Source of the DNA: a virus
Reading direction: 5' to 3' (one strand)
DNA: 21,342 nucleotides
Virus record (IMG/VR): IMGVR_UViG_3300006927_000100
Location: 1-21,342 of that record
The translations under genes and the position numbers were made by a program. Shown here piece by piece: positions 2 to 20,164 of the stretch (position 1 is its first letter; every line of letters starts with the position of its first letter). The notes beneath the pieces were generated by a model. That model did not search any database. It was not told where the DNA came from and was given only the letters and a program-made list of their open reading frames with translations.

Positions 2-3000
2 CGTTATGAGAAAGATATACAAAATATTCTTAAACGACTAAAACCAGAAATGAAGATGGTTACTGATGCACAGGGTGTAACTTGGTGGGAGATACCTATT
101 ACTAAAGAAGATGCAACACAACCAATGACAGCATTCTTAGAAGAAACAAAAGTTGCTAAACCTTGGAGAAAAAGAGTAATCATGGATACTGCTATAGTTA
201 AGGAATTAGTAGCTCACCTTAAAAGACTTGGATTAAAAGGTGTGCGTATTGAATTCGTTAAAGCTATATGGAATAGTAAAAGTGGTAAAAGAATATTTGG
301 TTCATATTTTGATGGTAAGATTACATTAGCATCAATATTATCAGAGTTTACTCATACACATGAACTTGGTCATCTTGTTTTTGAGCAGATGGAAGATATT
401 CCATTGTTTAAAGGTATATCTAAAAATGCTATTTATAGAGAATTGAGAGTTAAACATCCAGAATTAAAAACAAAACGTGAATTAAATGAAGCATTGCAGC
501 GTAGAGGTGAGGAGTTAGCTTATCAATATAAGAAACATGGGAAAGCAATATTTAATAAAACTAAAGTAGATACATTTTGGAAAAGAATATTTGAAAGTCT
601 AAAAGCAATATTTAATGTAAGTAAAGAAGGACAAATAGATAAATTTTGGGAAACACTTCTTACTAAAGAAGCTAAAGAAACAACTGTAATAAAAAAGAGG
701 GGTATTAAACCAGCTAATGCTGATGACTATAAAATATTTTATGATGAAGATTCTAATCCACCTGATGATTTTAATGAGTGGGTTGCAGAAGAACATGCAA
801 GACATATAGAAGAAACTAAATCAGATACAAATCAACTTACACAAGATGATTTAGAATGGTTTAAAAATAAATCAATGGAAAAATCATACGGACAAGAAGA
901 AGGTGAACACTTTGGTTCAGAAAATTTAGAAGAACAATATGAAGATTTTAAGAAACTTAGAATCCCAACAAAAACTTTACTTCGTTTAGAAGATTTAGAT
1001 ACATTTAAAGATACCGCTATATATAAAAACTATGTACAAAAAATTGGGATGGAACCTGGTTTCTTTTATAGTCAAGAATTAACAGGGGATGAAGTATGGC
1101 AAATGTTTAGAGATAGAATTGTTAGAGAACGTGAAGGACCATTAACCGAAGAAGATAAAATTAGATTTAGAGAAATTAAAAAACTTCTTAAAGCAAGAAC
1201 TATAAAAACTGCTATTGAAGATATATCTCCAAAATTAAAAGAAAAGATAAAGGCATATATAAGACCAGGAAAATCTAAAAATTCAAGAGCATTTGGATTA
1301 TTAGGAAATAAAGATACTACCATTCCTTTATTTCAAAATATGTATGAAAATTGGGTAAATATGGGAGTAGAATCTATAGTAGAACCTTATGCAGGTGCGT
1401 TTACTTTAGGTACTCATTCATTAAATAATGCTATGGTAAGTGGTTTAAAAGAATATCATGCAAATATATTTGATAAGGATAAATATATTATAGTGAAAGC
1501 TATAAAGAATAAAAAAGTTTCAGAAGTTAAAAAATTATATAAAAATACTGTTAAAGATTTAGAAGCAGAAATTTTTAAAGCTGCTAAAGAAGATACAATG
1601 GTTAATAAATTTTTATTAAAATTTAAAAAGAAATATCCTGATAATTTTATAGGAGATAATTTATTTAAAGAGTGGACTAAGAAAGAAAAACTTGGTGCAG
1701 AAGTTACAGTATATATAGATTATCGTAAAAGATTTGCTAAAGTATTTCAACAAGCATTTAATAAAATAGCAGATATTGAAATTAAAGATTTGAAAGATGC
1801 TGTTAAAGTATCATTTATACATCGTATAGGTCAAAGAGCTACTAAGGTACAAAAATTAGTAAATAATTTTGGTTTTCAATCTTATGAAAATTTAATATTT
1901 GATACTTTTGGAGCACTTACTGCAATGGATGATATAGCAAATACCTTTAAACTAGCAGAAGAAAACAATACTAAAATAAAACTTTATAATATGGATGGTG
2001 TTGAAATGATAAATAAAATACAGAAAGGTAAGATACCATCAGAAAAAATTGGTTATTATTTAGATCCACCATATATTAGTACAGCAGCAGCTACCTATAG
2101 AGAACAAATAAAACAACAAGAAAAAGGAACAGAATTTATACAAAAATTTGCAGACCCACAAGAATTTATAAATGCACATAAGAGTATTATTGATTCTGAT
2201 TCTAAGAAAGCATTTACAAATGATATAAATGAAGATTATCTATGGGGAATGTTAGATGTAGATAAAAATTTTAAACTTTTTGCATATAAAGAAGGAATGA
2301 CACCAACATCATTAGTAGTTGACAGTAAAACATCTGAAACAACTAATGATTATTTTACTAGTGCAGCTGCTCAAGATAATGTATTACTTACATATGATTA
2401 TGTTCTTAATAAATTAAAAAAACAAGGTAGTGTAGACATTAATATTAAAGCATTAAAAGATAAAGGTGTACCAGATGAATTAATTAAAGAAGTAGGAGAT
2501 GCATTAAGCAAAGAAATAGTAGATGAAAGAGGAACTTTCAAAAAGTTGCAAGACTTAATTAAGATGAAAGTAAATACAATAGATGGTGAAAAATATATTT
2601 CAGCAGTAATAAATAAAAAAACTCTTAACTATATAAAAAATACAAGTAATGTTAAAGATTTAAAGCCAAGATGGGTAAAAGAACTAAGTTTTGAATCTGC
2701 AGAAAGAACTGTGACTTCAGTATTAGAAGGTTATGAAACAGGAGCTAGATTTTTTACAAGACTTGGTAAAGGATTTAAACAAGTAGTTTTTGACCCAATT
2801 AGAATTGCTGAAAGAACTGCAGCTGATATAGCATTAAAGGAAATGCAAAAATTGAGAAAGGTTTTTTTTGGAAGTAGTTTTCTTAAAATAGGTGGACTAA
2901 ATAAAAAAGAAACAGAATCACTGTTTTACTATTCAGCATATAAACAGGGTAGGATGACCGAAAATGAATATTATAATGAAACAAAAATCAAACCTAAAAA

Positions 3001-4702
3001 AGAAGGTCCAACACTAGGAGATTTATCTAAGAACACACAAAGAGCATATTATGCTTTAAGAAAATTAACTGATAAATATTTGCCTAAGGTAAAAATGGTA
3101 GGCAAAATGCATGGTAAAGATGTAAAGAAAGTTAAGAATTATCTTCCAATGTTTACTAAGACGGATTTAAGAATACTAGAAGGTGGTGGACTTACAGGTT
3201 GGACTAGACATGACCCATTCTTTGGTTCAACCATAGAAAGAGCAGCTGATGTTCCATTTACAGCATATGAAAAAAATATGAAGAAGGTAATGGAAAATTG
3301 GATTTATGGTGTAACCAATTATGTAGAAGTTGGTAGTAGAACAGTACCAATTGGATATCTTATTAATAGTACTCAATTTAAAGAATTATCAGGTCATTCA
3401 TATAATAAAATAAGAGAGTGGTTTACTCATATAACAACACCTAAACCACCTACTAAAGCTGAAAGGTTTGTAAAAAACGTAAGACAGATAAAAGTTTTTA
3501 CAATACTTTCATTAACAGTTGGTGTTGTTGTTAAACAGCTTATTAATACATATAGTTTTATGGTTACAGCAGGAATAGGGAATGTCTTTAAAGCTGTTGC
3601 TCGTAAAAGTGTAGATGCTTTTTATAAAGGTGAGCAAAAATCACTTATTACTAGACTTGCTAATGAAGCTGGAAGTGTTAATGAAAGAACATTGGGATAT
3701 GATATACAAGATTTAAAGTCTACAATAATGAAATGGATGACACAACCTGCTTTATGGACCGATAGATTAACAGCTAAATTAGGATATATAGCTATATTAG
3801 AAAGAGAATTACAAAGAGCTAAAAAAGCAGGTATAACAGTAGATGCAAGAACATTTAAGAGAATGCAGTTTGTTGCAGATAATATAGTTGATGGAATTAT
3901 GGGAGGAATGGCAAAATCTGAACAACCAAAATATTTTAGAAGTGAATTAGGTAAAAATGTTAATACATTCTTTTCACAAGTTAATTCACAAACACAATTT
4001 TATGTTACTGATATATGGAGAAAAGAAGTTAGTAAAGATATAAGAGCAGATCAGAATAAAATCTTTTTTTTAACTAAAGCAATGGCAGCATTGTTTATGA
4101 TCGGATATACAGAAGAAATTATTAATAGATTAGATTGGGGTTTTGGTTGGGATGAAGAAGAAGATGAAGCAGATTGGGAGAAAATTTTTAAAGAAACTAC
4201 AAAAAATATAGTTGGTAATGTTCCAATAATGGGTTCTTTAATATATGCACTTGAAACAGGAAAACCCTTTACACCAGCACCTGTTTATGCTTCATTATTA
4301 AAAATAATATTAAATCTAAGTAGAGGTAAGTTTGGAGATGCAGCTTGGGAAGGTACTGGATTTATATATATGCCAAATGCTGTTCAAAATGTTATTAAAG
4401 GTACTAAAATTATTAAAGAAGGTGGAGTATATGATAAAACAGGTAGACTTATGTATCGTGTGGAAGGTACACCTGAACAGATAAGAACTCTTTTAAAAGG
4501 TAAGTACGGTTCAAAAACTGCGAGAGATTATTGGGAAGAAAAGAAACCTAAACCTAAGACAAAAGCAGAAAAGAGAAAAGAAAAAGCAAAAGCAGAAAGA
4601 GTAAAGAAAATAGAAAAAATAAGAGGTGCATCTAGAAGACGAACTGGTGGTTCAACCAAGGCAGAGAGAAAGAAGAAAATAGAAAGAATGCGTAAGCTAT
4701 AA
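2..4702 (+). CDS. Large polyvalent phage protein: zincin metallopeptidase + D12 adenine methyltransferase + hydrophobic C-terminus (5' partial)
   Basis: The frame is open to the left edge (first full codon at 2), so the gene is 5'-partial; the first ATG in the window is at 50 and residues below count from it. Residues 104-108 are HELGH, the HExxH zinc site of zincin metallopeptidases, preceded by a beta-strand-like segment. Around residues 415-690 is a D12-class (Dam-like) N6-adenine methyltransferase: GLLGNK ahead of motif I, EPYAGAF at 445, and catalytic DPPY at 672-675 (nt 2063-2074). The two motifs are about 227 residues apart, longer than in compact Dam enzymes, with a Lys/Glu-rich helical insertion. 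Residues about 1150-1180, 1338-1355 and 1385-1400 are hydrophobic, and the last 60 residues are strongly basic. This architecture matches the polyvalent proteins of phages and conjugative elements, which are often thought to be delivered with the DNA. That role is inferred here. A promoter and terminator follow the gene. Confidence 0.85.
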   Translation, partial: RYEKDIQNILKRLKPEMKMVTDAQGVTWWEIPITKEDATQPMTAFLEETKVAKPWRKRVIMDTAIVKELVAHLKRLGLKGVRIEFVKAIWNSKSGKRIFGSYFDGKITLASILSEFTHTHELGHLVFEQMEDIPLFKGISKNAIYRELRVKHPELKTKRELNEALQRRGEELAYQYKKHGKAIFNKTKVDTFWKRIFESLKAIFNVSKEGQIDKFWETLLTKEAKETTVIKKRGIKPANADDYKIFYDEDSNPPDDFNEWVAEEHARHIEETKSDTNQLTQDDLEWFKNKSMEKSYGQEEGEHFGSENLEEQYEDFKKLRIPTKTLLRLEDLDTFKDTAIYKNYVQKIGMEPGFFYSQELTGDEVWQMFRDRIVREREGPLTEEDKIRFREIKKLLKARTIKTAIEDISPKLKEKIKAYIRPGKSKNSRAFGLLGNKDTTIPLFQNMYENWVNMGVESIVEPYAGAFTLGTHSLNNAMVSGLKEYHANIFDKDKYIIVKAIKNKKVSEVKKLYKNTVKDLEAEIFKAAKEDTMVNKFLLKFKKKYPDNFIGDNLFKEWTKKEKLGAEVTVYIDYRKRFAKVFQQAFNKIADIEIKDLKDAVKVSFIHRIGQRATKVQKLVNNFGFQSYENLIFDTFGALTAMDDIANTFKLAEENNTKIKLYNMDGVEMINKIQKGKIPSEKIGYYLDPPYISTAAATYREQIKQQEKGTEFIQKFADPQEFINAHKSIIDSDSKKAFTNDINEDYLWGMLDVDKNFKLFAYKEGMTPTSLVVDSKTSETTNDYFTSAAAQDNVLLTYDYVLNKLKKQGSVDINIKALKDKGVPDELIKEVGDALSKEIVDERGTFKKLQDLIKMKVNTIDGEKYISAVINKKTLNYIKNTSNVKDLKPRWVKELSFESAERTVTSVLEGYETGARFFTRLGKGFKQVVFDPIRIAERTAADIALKEMQKLRKVFFGSSFLKIGGLNKKETESLFYYSAYKQGRMTENEYYNETKIKPKKEGPTLGDLSKNTQRAYYALRKLTDKYLPKVKMVGKMHGKDVKKVKNYLPMFTKTDLRILEGGGLTGWTRHDPFFGSTIERAADVPFTAYEKNMKKVMENWIYGVTNYVEVGSRTVPIGYLINSTQFKELSGHSYNKIREWFTHITTPKPPTKAERFVKNVRQIKVFTILSLTVGVVVKQLINTYSFMVTAGIGNVFKAVARKSVDAFYKGEQKSLITRLANEAGSVNERTLGYDIQDLKSTIMKWMTQPALWTDRLTAKLGYIAILERELQRAKKAGITVDARTFKRMQFVADNIVDGIMGGMAKSEQPKYFRSELGKNVNTFFSQVNSQTQFYVTDIWRKEVSKDIRADQNKIFFLTKAMAALFMIGYTEEIINRLDWGFGWDEEEDEADWEKIFKETTKNIVGNVPIMGSLIYALETGKPFTPAPVYASLLKIILNLSRGKFGDAAWEGTGFIYMPNAVQNVIKGTKIIKEGGVYDKTGRLMYRVEGTPEQIRTLLKGKYGSKTARDYWEEKKPKPKTKAEKRKEKAKAERVKKIEKIRGASRRRTGGSTKAERKKKIERMRKL

Positions 4703-8273: not shown

Positions 8274-8900
8274 ATGATAACAAAAGCATTAGAATTATTT
8301 TGTGGAACAAAAAGTTTTACTAAAGTAATACAAAAATATGTTAATACAACAATTACATCAGATATAAACGAAAGGTTTAATCCTGATATATGTGAAGATA
8401 TTTTTAATCTGGAATTTAAAGAAGGTGAGTTTGATATTATATGGGCAAGTCCACCTTGTGAGGGATTTAGTGTTGCGAGTATAGGTAAACATTGGAATAG
8501 GGATCACACACCTAAAACAGAAAAAGCTAAGTTATCTTTAGACATGATAAGAAAAACTATTGATATTATTAAAACCATTAAACCTAAATATTGGTTTATA
8601 GAAAATCCAAGAGGAAAACTAAGAAAAGTAATAGATGATATATTAATAGAATCTCTTGGTAATTCATACAAGAGAGAAACTATCTGTTATTGTAGATATG
8701 GAGATACAAGGATGAAACCAACAGATATATGGACAAATGCTTTTGAGTGGAAACCAAAGGATAAGATGTGTCAAAATGGAAATCCTGATCATGAATCTGC
8801 TCCACGAGGAAGTAAAACAGGAACACAAGGGTTAAAGAATTATGAATTAAGGTCTGTTATACCACCAGCATTATTTGAAGAATTATTTAAAACATTATGA
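8274..8900 (+). CDS. DNA (cytosine-5) methyltransferase, short phage form
   Basis: A 208-aa protein. Motif I ALELFCGTKSFT (residues 5-16) binds S-adenosylmethionine. SDIN near 29-32 is the acidic turn. Motif IV SPPCEGFS carries the catalytic Cys62, and motif VI WFIENPRG has Glu110 (ENP instead of the usual ENV). The end, NYELRSVIPPALFEEL, resembles the C-terminal motif X helix region. At 208 residues it is shorter than typical restriction-type enzymes (over 300), so the target recognition domain is minimal. It should methylate phage DNA at C5, for example to evade restriction. No Shine-Dalgarno is seen, and it follows a structured intergenic region. Its stop overlaps the start of a glycosyltransferase gene (ATGA), which suggests a joint pathway. 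Confidence 0.85.
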   Translation: MITKALELFCGTKSFTKVIQKYVNTTITSDINERFNPDICEDIFNLEFKEGEFDIIWASPPCEGFSVASIGKHWNRDHTPKTEKAKLSLDMIRKTIDIIKTIKPKYWFIENPRGKLRKVIDDILIESLGNSYKRETICYCRYGDTRMKPTDIWTNAFEWKPKDKMCQNGNPDHESAPRGSKTGTQGLKNYELRSVIPPALFEELFKTL

Positions 8901-9487
8901 AACAAATTAAAATTTATACATCAATAACTGGTGATAAAGATAACCCAAGAGAAGATAAAATTAAATGTTTTACTGGTGAAGGAAAGTTTATAGAATCTGT
9001 AATGGAAGCTAAGATTTATAAAATTTTAGCACACCAATTTATAGAAGCAGATTACTCTATATGGACAGATGGAAATGTAGAATTATTAATACCACCAGAA
9101 CAATTAGTAGAGGAATGGTTAGGAGATAAATATGATATGGCATTATGGAAGCATCCTTATAGAAAATGTTTATATGATGAAGCAAATTTATGTAAAATAT
9201 TATTTAGTAATCAAAAATTAATAATAGATGAACAAATAAAACATTATAGAAATAAAAACTTTCCAGAATTACATGGTTTAAAAGAATGTTGCATAATAGT
9301 AAGAAAACATAGTAAGGAAATGGAAAGATTTAATAATGCTTGGTGGTCAGAAATATGTAGATGGAGTTCTAGAGACCAATTATCTTTTCCTTATGTATTA
9401 TCTAAATTTCCTAAATTAAAAGTTAAGGTGATAGATGGTAATGCCAGAAATCATCCTTACTTTAAATATACTGATCACTTAATATAA
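8897..9487 (+). CDS. DUF616/TOD1-MUCI70-like glycosyltransferase
   Basis: A 196-aa protein. IYTSITGDKDNP at the N-terminus, KILAHQFIEADYSIWTDGNV (about 43-62), then ALWKHPYRKCLYDEA (about 82-96), and WWSEICRWSSRDQLSFPYVL (about 149-168) match the DUF616 glycosyltransferase-like family, in which the Asp of WTDGN corresponds to the metal/nucleotide-sugar site of GT-A folds. Such domains occur in cell-wall, capsule and phage sugar-transfer loci. The ATG overlaps the methyltransferase stop by ATGA, so the two are translationally coupled. The sugar acceptor could be modified cytosine in phage DNA, a virion protein or a host glycan, and the sequence cannot say which. A promoter starts ten bases after its stop. 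Confidence 0.7.
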   Translation: MKQIKIYTSITGDKDNPREDKIKCFTGEGKFIESVMEAKIYKILAHQFIEADYSIWTDGNVELLIPPEQLVEEWLGDKYDMALWKHPYRKCLYDEANLCKILFSNQKLIIDEQIKHYRNKNFPELHGLKECCIIVRKHSKEMERFNNAWWSEICRWSSRDQLSFPYVLSKFPKLKVKVIDGNARNHPYFKYTDHLI

Positions 9488-12598: not shown

Positions 12599-12627
12599 TT
12601 GCCTTTTAAGGTAATATGTGCTATAAT
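12599..12627 (+). promoter_or_regulatory. Late operon promoter (extended -10)
   Basis: TTGCCT (12599-12604), 17 bases, TATAAT (12622-12627) with TG at 12619-12620. A start near 12634 leaves only about nine bases before the ATG at 12643, so the small terminase mRNA would be almost leaderless. An upstream in-frame ATG at 12616 lies inside this promoter, which argues against it as the start. Confidence 0.65.
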
Positions 12628-12642
12628 TACATAAGATATAAT

Positions 12643-13083
12643 ATGAAAATAAAAGGATTAACAATTCAGGAGAAGAAAGCTGCTGACCATTATCTTGAAT
12701 ATGGTCAAAAAGCTAATGCTATTCGTCATGCCTATAATATAGGTAAGAAGGGGGGTTCTAAAACTGAAGAGTTAGAAAAAATAACAGTTAGAAATATGGG
12801 ACAACAAGTATTTAGTCGTAAAAACGTTTCAGAGTATATTGAAGGACATGCTACTGGAGCAGCTAGTAGAGTAGTAGATTTATCTAAAACAGCAGATTCC
12901 GATGCTGTGCGTTTGAATGCTAATAAAGATATTTTAGATAGAGCAGGGTTTAAACCAAAAGAAGTAAGCGAAGTAGAAGTAAAGAAAACCTATGATGAAG
13001 AACAAATCCAAAGGGCAATCAAAGAAATCCAAGACAAGTCCGCTTCAGATGGCGGAGATGATGGAACAGAAGGCAAGGAATAA
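12643..13083 (+). CDS. terS: Terminase small subunit
   Basis: A 146-aa protein from ATG 12643, chosen because the earlier ATG at 12616 overlaps the promoter. GLTIQEKKAADHYLEYGQKA then AIRHAYNIGKKGGS is a helix-turn-helix typical of small terminase subunits, followed by a central helical oligomerization part (RKNVSEYIEGHATGAASRVV, DSDAVRLNANKDILDRAG) and an acidic tail (SDGGDDGTEGKE). It should recognise the packaging site and deliver DNA to the large subunit. It is the first gene of the late operon, with almost no 5' leader, and its 3' end overlaps the large-subunit gene. Confidence 0.75.
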   Translation: MKIKGLTIQEKKAADHYLEYGQKANAIRHAYNIGKKGGSKTEELEKITVRNMGQQVFSRKNVSEYIEGHATGAASRVVDLSKTADSDAVRLNANKDILDRAGFKPKEVSEVEVKKTYDEEQIQRAIKEIQDKSASDGGDDGTEGKE

Positions 13084-14446
13084 CTTCCGAGTCTTTTGTA
13101 CGTTAATAGATAGGAATTATCAATTTAACTGGCATCATCGTGTTATAGCTGATAAACTAGAAGCAGTTGATAGAGGTGAGATAAAACGTTTAATGATATT
13201 CATGCCACCAAGACATGGCAAATCGCAATTAGCTAGTATATTATTTCCTGCTTGGTTTCTAGGTAAGAACAAAGGTAAAGAGATAATTACCGCTTCTTAT
13301 TCGGGGGACTTAGCTCAAGACTTTGGTGGTAAAACAAGAGATATTGTAGCAGACCAAATATTTACCAAGATATTCGGTACAACCCTTAAAAGCGATGAGA
13401 AGTCCAAGGCAAAGTGGAGAATGACTAATAAAGGCACATATACATCTGTTGGTGTGGGGGGTGCAGTTACTGGTCGTGGAGCAAATATTTTAATAATTGA
13501 TGATCCTATTAAAAATAGAGAAGAAGCTGAATCTGATGTTATACGTGACAAAGTATGGAATTGGTACACATCCACAGCTTATACACGTCTGGAGAAGAAT
13601 GGAGCAATAATAATAATTCTTACTAGATGGCACTTAATGGATTTAGCAGGTAGATTATTAGAGAAAGAAATGGAAGGCGGAGAAAAATGGGAAGTCATTA
13701 ATTTTCCAGCTCTAGCCAGAAAAGATGAGGAATTTAGAAAAGAAGGAGAAGCACTATGGAAAACCAAGTATGGGAAAGAAGATTTACTTCAAATAAAAGA
13801 AACCATAGGAATATATGATTGGGCAGCACTTTATCAACAAACACCAGTATTAACAGAGAGCCAAGAATTTAAACAAGATTGGATACAATATATTTCTCGT
13901 AAAGATGTTATCTTGAAAGATACACGTAAATACCTAACTGTTGATACAGCGATGAGTAAAAAGGAAACAGCTGACTATACAGGTTTTACTGAGAACTTCG
14001 TAGATAAAGAGAATAAATGGAATGTAGCTGCTTACAGGATGAGATTAAATGCCAAAGAGTTCGTTGAATACTTATTTACCCTACAAGATAGACATAGCTT
14101 TGAAAAAATAGGAATAGAGAAAACAGCTTATGTCTGGGGATTAAAACCTTATTTAGATGGAGAACAAAGAAAACGTAATAAATATTTACCAATAGTGGAG
14201 CTGACACATAAACAAACAGCAAAGGAAACAAGAATTCGTGGACTTGTTCCCAGATACAATAGTGGAAGTATATTCCACATTAGGGGTGAATGTAAGGATT
14301 TAGAAGAAGAAATGTTTACTTTCCCAAAATCAACTCACGATGATGTATTAGATAGTCTTGCTTATCAAGCACAAATAGTAGACCATAAGAAAAAAGGTAA
14401 GCGACAATTTATACCAAATTTTAAAAAGATAAGTTATTTAAGATAA
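13049..14446 (+). CDS. terL: Terminase large subunit (packaging ATPase/nuclease)
   Basis: About 465 aa. The frame is open back to ATG 12992, but that start would overlap terS by 92 bases. ATG 13049 (or 13058/13061, preceded by GGCGGAG) gives a modest overlap and begins in the helix leading to ARNNFRVF. Walker A is PPRHGKSQ (Lys58 in this numbering) and Walker B is ILIIDDP (Asp151-Asp152). The RNase H-like nuclease has LTVDTAMS (Asp299) and THDDVLDSLAYQ (Asp431-Asp432). Together these power DNA translocation into the prohead and cut the concatemer. Length and order are normal for the family. The portal gene starts one base after the stop (TAATATG). Confidence 0.9.
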   Translation: MAEMMEQKARNNFRVFCTLIDRNYQFNWHHRVIADKLEAVDRGEIKRLMIFMPPRHGKSQLASILFPAWFLGKNKGKEIITASYSGDLAQDFGGKTRDIVADQIFTKIFGTTLKSDEKSKAKWRMTNKGTYTSVGVGGAVTGRGANILIIDDPIKNREEAESDVIRDKVWNWYTSTAYTRLEKNGAIIIILTRWHLMDLAGRLLEKEMEGGEKWEVINFPALARKDEEFRKEGEALWKTKYGKEDLLQIKETIGIYDWAALYQQTPVLTESQEFKQDWIQYISRKDVILKDTRKYLTVDTAMSKKETADYTGFTENFVDKENKWNVAAYRMRLNAKEFVEYLFTLQDRHSFEKIGIEKTAYVWGLKPYLDGEQRKRNKYLPIVELTHKQTAKETRIRGLVPRYNSGSIFHIRGECKDLEEEMFTFPKSTHDDVLDSLAYQAQIVDHKKKGKRQFIPNFKKISYLR

Positions 14447-18361: not shown

Positions 18362-18493
18362 ATGGGAGTAAGAATAAATATCACAAAAAAAGAAAGATTG
18401 TTCATTCACAAAGATGGTCGTATTGAAGTTCTAAGTAGTACAGATAAATCAAAACCTAAAAAGAAGAAAGAGAAAAAAGATGAAAGTATATAA
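18362..18493 (+). CDS. 43-aa basic peptide after the capsid gene
   Basis: ATG at 18362 opens a 43-codon frame: MGVRINITKKERLFIHKDGR, then a Ser/Thr linker and a lysine-rich tail (SKPKKKKEKKDESI). The first half looks like a small beta unit and the second is strongly basic. It lies 24 bases after the capsid hairpin, fills the gap, and overlaps the next gene by 14 bases, as compact phage genes do. No Shine-Dalgarno. It could be a head decoration or DNA-binding peptide; nothing specific can be said. Confidence 0.5.
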   Translation: MGVRINITKKERLFIHKDGRIEVLSSTDKSKPKKKKEKKDESI

Positions 18494-19556
18494 TATTACA
18501 GGGTGTCATTTTTCTTGTGCTTATGTTAGACAACTTCTCCCTATGTGGGAGAATGGCTATAATGGTAATTTTATTGGATTAAATACACCTAGAAAAGATA
18601 TGAAGACAATCACTCAAGAAGCAATAGATTCAGACATAATAGTATTTCATAGACCAGAACTAGGTACATATTGGAAGGTAGCTGACATTCTTAAGGGGAT
18701 GGGGAAAAAAATAGTATTTGATAATGATGATACATTTAAACTTCACAAAGGACATCCTTTTTATAAGATGCATATTGGTATGAAATTAATGGACAAATTT
18801 AATAGAAATTATGATATGATAAATTATCAAACAAATAGTTTCATTAGAGCTGCAGACTTAGTAACTACTACTACAAAGACATTAGCTAAAGAGTATAAGG
18901 AATTAAATCCTAATGTAGTGATATTACCAAACTGTGTTAATCTAGATGATTGGGAAGAACCATTAAGACATGAAGATAATATAGTAAGAATAGGTATATC
19001 AGGTTCAACTGCATATACTTATGATTTTAAGAACATTAAAAATTATATCAAAGAATTAGATGAAAGGGATGATGTTCAATTTATACTATTTGGACTTGAT
19101 GATAAAGAAGATAGAAAAAAATATCCAAAGGTAACTAAGATTCTTGAAGATGAATATGCATTTTGGGATACATTAAAAAATAAAGAACACATGCATTGGG
19201 TTGATAGGTCTAAGTATAATAAAACATTAAATAATTTAAAGTTAGATATAATGCTTATTCCAAGACAAGAATGTTATTTTAACAGATGTAAATCAAACAT
19301 TAAATTTTTAGAAGCAGCAATGTGTGAGATACCAGTAGTAGCAAGTAGTTTTACAGATGGTCCTTACGAAGAACTAGATGGGAAGAATGGTATTAAAATA
19401 AAAGATAAAACAAAATGGAAAGAGATAGTTGATGACCTTATTAAGAATAAAGAAAAGAGAAGGGCGATAGGCAAAGAAGCAAAACGATATGTTCTTAATA
19501 ATTATGATATTAAAGACCATGCATATAAATGGGAAGAAGTATATAAAACCTTATGA
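18480..19556 (+). CDS. GT-B glycosyltransferase (GT1/GT4-like)
   Basis: A 358-aa protein. It lacks a signal peptide and has two Rossmann-like halves. The N-terminal half contains KIVFDNDDTFKLHKGHP and ADLVTTTTKTLAKEY then VVILPNCVNLDDW. The C-terminal half contains RIGISGSTAYTYDF and the donor-binding segment KSNIKFLEAAMCEIPVVASS near residue 271, with Glu278 in the usual place of the E-x7-E type motif. This is characteristic of GT4-like retaining enzymes. The gene is in the structural operon and its TGA overlaps the next glycosyltransferase ATG (ATGA), so the pair probably acts in sequence on one acceptor, perhaps a capsid or tail protein. The acceptor is not determinable. Confidence 0.8.
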   Translation: MKVYNITGCHFSCAYVRQLLPMWENGYNGNFIGLNTPRKDMKTITQEAIDSDIIVFHRPELGTYWKVADILKGMGKKIVFDNDDTFKLHKGHPFYKMHIGMKLMDKFNRNYDMINYQTNSFIRAADLVTTTTKTLAKEYKELNPNVVILPNCVNLDDWEEPLRHEDNIVRIGISGSTAYTYDFKNIKNYIKELDERDDVQFILFGLDDKEDRKKYPKVTKILEDEYAFWDTLKNKEHMHWVDRSKYNKTLNNLKLDIMLIPRQECYFNRCKSNIKFLEAAMCEIPVVASSFTDGPYEELDGKNGIKIKDKTKWKEIVDDLIKNKEKRRAIGKEAKRYVLNNYDIKDHAYKWEEVYKTL

Positions 19557-20164
19557 AAAAAGTATTATTAGCAATTCCAACTGGTGGTAATTTAGATTAT
19601 AGAATAGTTGAATTTATGCTAGATATGTATAACCAAAAGAAGTATAAAGTAATTATACATATTTCAAAGCTAGTAGGAATTGAAGCAAATAGAAATCAAA
19701 TAGTTAAAGCACTTTTAAATTCAACTTGTGATTACCTACTTATGGTAGATACAGATAATCCCCCCCTGGATAATCCTTTAGATTTAATAAAAGAAGATAA
19801 AGATATTATAGGATTACCCACTCCAATTAATATGAGTTGTATTAGAGGAATGAGTTTCTTCAAATATAATATCTATAAAGATGATAAACAATTAAAAGAT
19901 GGTGAAGGATTACAAAAGGTAGATGCGGTAGGAACTGGTTGTATACTTATTAAAAGAGAGGTATTTGAAAAATTGGGAGATAATCCTTTTACTCCAGAGA
20001 GATATGAAGATGATAGAATAAAAGTAGGAGAAGATATAATGTTCTGTAGAAGGGTAAAGAAAGCAGGAATAGATATATGGACACATTGGGATTATAAGTG
20101 TCATCATTATAAGGAGATAGATTTAACTACATTACCAGTAGAAATATTTAATAAACTAATATAA
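19553..20164 (+). CDS. GT-A glycosyltransferase (GT2-like)
   Basis: A 203-aa protein. The N-terminus KKVLLAIPTGGNLDYR begins a GT-A nucleotide-binding fold; GIEANRNQIVKALLNSTCDY leads to LLMVDTDNPP, where DTD (residues 66-68) is the DxD metal/nucleotide-sugar motif. AVGTGCILIKREVFEKLGDN and GEDIMFCRRVKKAGIDIW form the acceptor-side region with the catalytic ED, and CHHYKEID supplies a late metal-binding histidine. The layout is like short GT2 enzymes and phage glycosyltransferases. It is translationally coupled (ATGA) to the GT-B gene, so two sugars may be added successively. Whether DNA, virion or host surface is modified is unknown. Confidence 0.8.
   Translation: MKKVLLAIPTGGNLDYRIVEFMLDMYNQKKYKVIIHISKLVGIEANRNQIVKALLNSTCDYLLMVDTDNPPLDNPLDLIKEDKDIIGLPTPINMSCIRGMSFFKYNIYKDDKQLKDGEGLQKVDAVGTGCILIKREVFEKLGDNPFTPERYEDDRIKVGEDIMFCRRVKKAGIDIWTHWDYKCHHYKEIDLTTLPVEIFNKLI

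Follow-up and report, generated by a model that had tools for sequence, protein, structure and literature searches.

A zincin-like metallopeptidase and a D12/Dam-type methylase in one giant phage frame, a candidate polyvalent ejection-type protein

Polyvalent proteins are giant multidomain proteins whose hub domain is a zincin that probably processes the polyprotein (Iyer et al. 2017, PMC5512222). The adenine methylases found in them are mostly of the EcoKI/TaqI type, carrying NPPY and joined to an SNF2 helicase, and the protection in cis that P1 DarB gives to DNA is of a type thought to need such a helicase (PMC5512222). Self-processing by the zincin has been proposed for P1 DdrB, with some polyvalent proteins being processed before packaging; effector roles for zincins are also allowed, and one protein with a zincin, an adenine methylase and an ART together is named, so that the pairing of the first two has precedent (PMC5512222). 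The ejection proteins of T7-type podoviruses, in turn, are internal virion proteins (PMC8954989).

Here we describe a frame of 1,566 codons at the left end of a 21,342-base window, the whole stretch of DNA analyzed, which makes up one virus record, has no end repeats and is probably a fragment. With polyvalent proteins, including P1 DarB and DdrB (PMC5512222), the encoded protein shares a giant multidomain build, a zincin hub and unrelated enzyme domains, and two or more such enzyme domains lie in one large protein in four phages, namely the window and the uncultured phages G032, G033 and G034. It departs from the described polyvalent methylases, which mostly carry NPPY, LPD36 and an SNF2 helicase, in having a D12 enzyme: the motif found is DPPY only, and neither a Walker A motif nor a helicase match was detected in the 1,566 residues. 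By domain content, the window protein fits the polyvalent class, but with a D12 enzyme and without a helicase. A sequence-only reading had likened the frame to polyvalent proteins, and this likeness is borne out by the shared domain class, by the position of the gene in relatives, where it ends the structural set, and by fusion of the upstream domain to LPD38 in one related protein (L095). The literature searched gave us no account of a polyvalent protein with a D12 methylase, which is not proof of absence.

The open frame and its relatives

The frame (positions 2-4702, plus strand) is free of stops and open at its 5' end. HELGH, EPYAGAF and DPPY had been placed in a single uninterrupted frame of more than 1550 codons, and their coordinates proved to be exactly those given (Table 1); in a protein of such composition, HExxH would be expected by chance 0.015 times and DPPY 0.003 times. 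The frame had also been taken to enter from outside the window, and residues 2-45 indeed match the C-terminal end of an upstream part of ~1100-1200 residues in relatives, by comparison with which the full-length protein is probably ~2700 residues long. A separate internal start for the enzyme part was rejected, as in-frame ATGs with SD-like sequences occur only at residues 766, 948 and 1303, past the catalytic motifs. The giant gene is followed by tailed-phage genes encoding HNH/NinG, an Erf annealing protein, a lysozyme-like protein, the small and large terminase, the portal and the major capsid protein. The small and large terminase frames (12616-13083 and 12992-14446) overlap by ~90 bases as listed. 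Two glycosyltransferase-like genes (18480-20164) lie directly 3' of the major capsid gene; the first has a homologue in phage G012 (66.8 kb), again just past the capsid gene, and a TOD1/MUCI70-like glycosyltransferase gene (8897-9487; E=6.5e-26) lies in a stretch that is 98% identical in phages G007 and G022.

Table 1. Features of the giant frame and their coordinates in the window
Feature	Positions	Strand	Basis or remark
C-terminal end of upstream domain (residues 2-45); remainder beyond contig	2..136	+	66% identity to C-terminal end of 1219-aa protein (L056, phage G022); 52% to that of 1109-aa protein (L071, phage G030)
Zincin-like metallopeptidase domain (residues 82-212)	245..637	+	hhalign against crAss-like phage zincin profile
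HELGH, zinc-binding and catalytic motif (residues 120-124)	359..373	+	Both His and the Glu unchanged in four homologues
Predicted third zinc ligand, Glu170 of EELAYQY	509..511	+	Invariant in four; aligned with EExxAE of crAss-like zincins
Variable linker, zincin to methylase	638..1201	+	HExxH-EPYAGA distance differs among relatives
D12/Dam-type (alpha class) DNA adenine methyltransferase (residues ~401-788)	1202..2365	+	Homologues, D12 profile, AF2 model
Motif X, LLGNK	1298..1312	+	In alignment, coincides with GNK of phage Dams
Motif I, EPYAGAF, AdoMet binding (residues 461-467)	1382..1402	+	EPYAGA invariant in four; aligned with EPFxGxG
Enlarged stretch between motifs I/II and IV: target-recognition position and ~75 extra residues	1508..1981	+	
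Motif IV, DPPY (residues 688-691)	2063..2074	+	Invariant in four homologues
C-terminal region of unassigned fold	2507..4495	+	Neither a sequence relative nor an LPD38 profile match found
Single strongly hydrophobic stretch (residues 1163-1181)	3488..3544	+	Kyte-Doolittle mean 1.83 over 19 residues
Basic tail	4496..4699	+	Net charge +18 in last 60 residues

Whole-protein and piecewise searches with the 1,566-residue protein gave no acceptable match in Pfam, PHROGs, NCBIfam or PDB sequences, and no significant match was found in 50,697 phage records, 72,556 plasmids or the first viral and genome contig scans. Since the family is too divergent for such plain searches, relatives were reached through the phage itself, with terminase and portal searches leading to near-identical and distant phages. 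The closest phage covering the site is G022, whose portal is 73% identical to that of the window. The upstream-domain proteins of G022 and G030 stop ~30-40 residues past the shared stretch, in a hydrophobic segment and a few lysines, whereas the window frame goes on for ~1500 residues past this domain. The same stretch occurs in ~25 further phage proteins, and alignment of the upstream domain yielded 30 loci; among them, L095 connects the domain to the polyvalent network, LPD38 being a recognized polyvalent-protein domain, and L092 (G032) carries the upstream domain, then an HEAFH zincin and then the methylase in a complete protein of 3062 residues. Two more phages, G033 (2057 aa) and G034 (2082 aa), came from a scan for EPYAGA[FY]T, their proteins matching the window methylase with E-values of ~1e-89. 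A zincin followed by a D12 methylase is thus found in one protein in each of these three phages, an HExxH zincin lies ahead of the methylase in all four, and the G034 protein covers window residues 2-130 in a single unbroken alignment. Phage G012, with a large terminase ~57% identical to that of the window, encodes a 1343-residue LPD38 polyvalent protein with HEVGH (L026, 4151-8182, minus strand).

Enzyme domains and C-terminal region

The proposal that HELGH marks a zinc metallopeptidase gains support from profile comparison. On its own, the window protein matched the zincin profile of crAss-like phage giant proteins (hhalign probability 95.9, P=6e-9) over ~120 residues, HExxH and the distant Glu coinciding in both, and the profile built from all four zincins reached P=2.2e-16 with a score of 109.9, compared with at most 19.2 in column shuffles. 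The window protein differs from the crAss-like proteins in having HELGH where they have HEAFH, and no RNA polymerase was found in it. Alignment of the four divergent zincins left nine invariant columns, among them the H, E and H of HExxH and Glu170, predicted to be the downstream glutamate on the second helix, and this invariance may be read as a sign of selection for catalysis. Across the zincin part the AF2 model has a pLDDT below 50; given that this part is left unfolded, the zincin fold is assigned from the profile match, and the structure search, which listed no zincin, is uninformative here. When the zincin and methylase profiles were run against PDB sequences with hmmsearch, chance matches only were returned. 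The distance from HExxH to EPYAGA is ~340 residues in the window, 184 in G034, 364 in G033 and 694 in G032.

The methylase domain is 37-42% identical to its three phage homologues (E 1e-71 to 3e-90; E=1.5e-71 for L092 of G032), and motif I, DPPY, TND, KEGxTPTSL and others are invariant in the four-way alignment. We compared it with a profile of 12 Dam-type proteins comprising annotated phage Dams, one unannotated phage homologue and E. coli Dam. The window sequence alone scored 34 (shuffles at most 21.6) and the four-sequence profile 50.4 (P=3e-6; column shuffles at most 22.5), with motif X, motif I, the recognition region and DPPY in register both in the hhalign comparison and in the alignment of the four. 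The curated Pfam profile PF02086 gave no match to the window and E=0.006 with one of its homologues. An AF2 model from the single sequence (mean pLDDT 36) was discarded; with four sequences the methylase core reached a pLDDT of 80-90, and Foldseek against the PDB placed Dam-family structures at all of ranks 1-16 (E. coli Dam at 1-14, then DpnM and T4 Dam), with modest E-values of ~1e-3. VIA-align gave Z of 10-12 to Dam-family structures (rmsd 3.6-4.1 over ~200 residues), consistent with a Dam-like fold of the AF2 model, and Z of 8-10 to unrelated methyltransferases, which covered less of the domain. Given the profile matches, the motifs in register and the Dam-family matches from Foldseek and VIA-align, the assignment of this domain as a D12/Dam-type enzyme, earlier proposed from DPPY, is well supported by profile comparison, conserved motifs and predicted fold.

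The window enzyme shares with E. coli Dam, DpnM and T4 Dam the order of motifs X, I, recognition region and IV (DPPY) as well as the predicted fold, but it is ~12-16% identical to the solved Dams, its motif I ends in GA[FY] rather than GxG, and it sits inside a giant protein. The extra insertion that the sequence-only reading had noted between the methyltransferase motifs recurs in all four phages as ~75 additional residues before DPPY, motif I and DPPY being separated by ~225-235 residues in these proteins versus ~145-150 in Dams. None of the four has the RYNxxGEFNVP signature seen in several Dams, but neither do the T4-type Dam proteins of our set. Collectively, these comparisons establish, at the level of profiles and, for the methylase, of predicted fold, a zincin with intact predicted ligands followed by a D12 methylase with intact AdoMet-binding and catalytic motifs.

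In profile comparison, residues 842-1566 have no detectable relative, the C-termini of the G032, G033 and G034 proteins included. LPD38 was rejected as the identity of this region, with no hmmscan match and an hhalign score of 20.1 against shuffles of up to 25.3. The basic tail described earlier is indeed strongly charged (Table 1), and the G033 and G034 proteins have acidic tails at their C-termini. The membrane-like character ascribed to the C-terminus is weak, with residues 1163-1181 strongly hydrophobic and one further stretch marginally so, and a membrane role is only weakly indicated. Of the combination that had been proposed for this protein, the zincin, the D12 methylase and the basic tail therefore stand, and the membrane-like region comes down to one strongly hydrophobic stretch.

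Gene place and likeness to ejection proteins

Among the large genes of the structural cluster, the zincin-D12 gene comes last in G032, G033 and G034, and its neighbor in G034 has an L-alanyl-D-glutamate-peptidase match. The order in G022 is a tail-type gene, a gene for an 830-residue protein with a glucosaminidase/transglycosylase match and then that for the 1219-residue protein, which is the last large gene after the tail/ejection-type genes. Phage G003 shares 8.8 kb with the window at 99.3% identity and continues rightward into a tail-type gene, a homologue of the first of these G022 genes. For the window gene itself, a place at the end of the structural cluster is assigned by homology, since its own upstream genes lie outside the contig. 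In the gene order of T7, the internal virion (ejection) protein genes occupy such a place in the structural cluster. With T7 gp16 and the podovirus ejection proteins (PMC8954989), the window protein shares the features of a very large, internal-virion-type protein encoded at the end of the structural genes, a place known from relatives only, as are the peptidoglycan-cutting neighbors that add to the likeness. No sequence similarity to gp16 was shown, and the window protein differs from it in bearing DNA methylase and protease domains.

Proposed role, rival readings and the GATC pattern

We favor, with moderate confidence, a polyvalent ejection-type protein with processing by the zincin and methylation of the entering DNA. 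The giant protein would be a late product, packaged in the head among the internal virion proteins, and would enter the cell together with the DNA or before it, its C-terminal part engaging membrane or DNA. The zincin would cut the polyprotein and free its units, during assembly or inside the cell, as proposed for P1 DdrB, and the methylase would modify adenines of the entering phage genome ahead of host restriction enzymes. We infer delivery, self-processing and the protection of incoming DNA from precedent and gene position, on which grounds the protein is probably carried in the virion and probably helps incoming phage DNA survive in the host. On balance, the frame would then represent the C-terminal 1,566 residues of such a protein, from a podovirus-like phage whose genome is ~40 kb long. 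The lack of a helicase in these residues counts against protection on entry.

The zincin may instead be an effector that cuts a host protein, with the methylase acting on host DNA and changing gene expression, as effector roles for zincins would allow and as a zincin-methylase linker that varies strongly next to conserved active-site residues might suggest. The experimental precedent for polyvalent methylases, P1 DarB, is nevertheless protection of phage DNA (PMC5512222) and no host target can be named, and we regard a host-directed role as unlikely. For the zincin, which the sequence-only reading had suggested could act on host proteins, self-processing is at least as likely. The late-cluster position of the gene, together with the processing of some polyvalent proteins before packaging (P1 DdrB; PMC5512222), would also suit a virion structural or ejection protein whose enzymes serve mainly in assembly, with the methylase modifying progeny DNA late and not on entry; a stand-alone methylase would suffice for this, however, and four phages retain the methylase as part of a giant late protein, which leaves this reading rather improbable. 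That the frame joins unrelated sequence, as an assembly chimera or decaying gene, is highly improbable given its in-frame continuity across 1,566 codons, the same domain order in G034 with window residues 2-130 matched in one piece and the invariant catalytic residues, even though no other IMG/VR contig with the gene was found and the evidence at the join comes from a single contig.

Methylation on entry, as in our favored reading, bears on the GATC content of these phages. GATC is absent from the close relatives G003 (47 expected), G007 (44), G022 (74) and G030 (138), and the window has 19 sites where 53 are expected. Within the 8.8 kb common to the window and G003, 61 bases differ, and the two GATC sites of the window in this stretch (13502 and 17069) have GGTC as their counterpart in G003 and G007, with GATT or GACC at these places in relatives farther removed; they consequently look derived, as though the window clade had regained some of the sites lost in near-identical phages. 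None of the four D12-polyvalent phages is free of GATC (observed/expected 0.30-0.79), compared with a ratio of at most 0.13 in 12 of 29 phages that have the upstream domain and no D12 seen, a contrast with one-sided P~0.06 by hand calculation uncorrected for kinship. A protective methylase would explain this pattern and is offered as a lead, with a separate C5-methylase gene as the rival cause: the comparison is confounded by the window's own 208-residue C5-type DNA methylase gene (8274-8900), a clean block missing from G007, and by the fact that G003 and G007 end before the giant gene. At the place of the C5 gene, G022 has a 483-residue CcrM-like methylase. We consider it doubtful that a virion-borne Dam-type methylase replaced sequence avoidance, such that the relatives (20-46 kb) purged GATC, apparently under GATC-directed attack, and the window clade regained sites because its enzyme methylates them on entry.

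The GATC differences among near-identical strains constitute a natural experiment in avoiding versus modifying restriction sites. The presence of a D12 enzyme beside a zincin in the polyvalent proteins of four phages suggests a second and simpler route, which may protect or mark DNA on entry by other means than the usual EcoKI/TaqI methylase and helicase.
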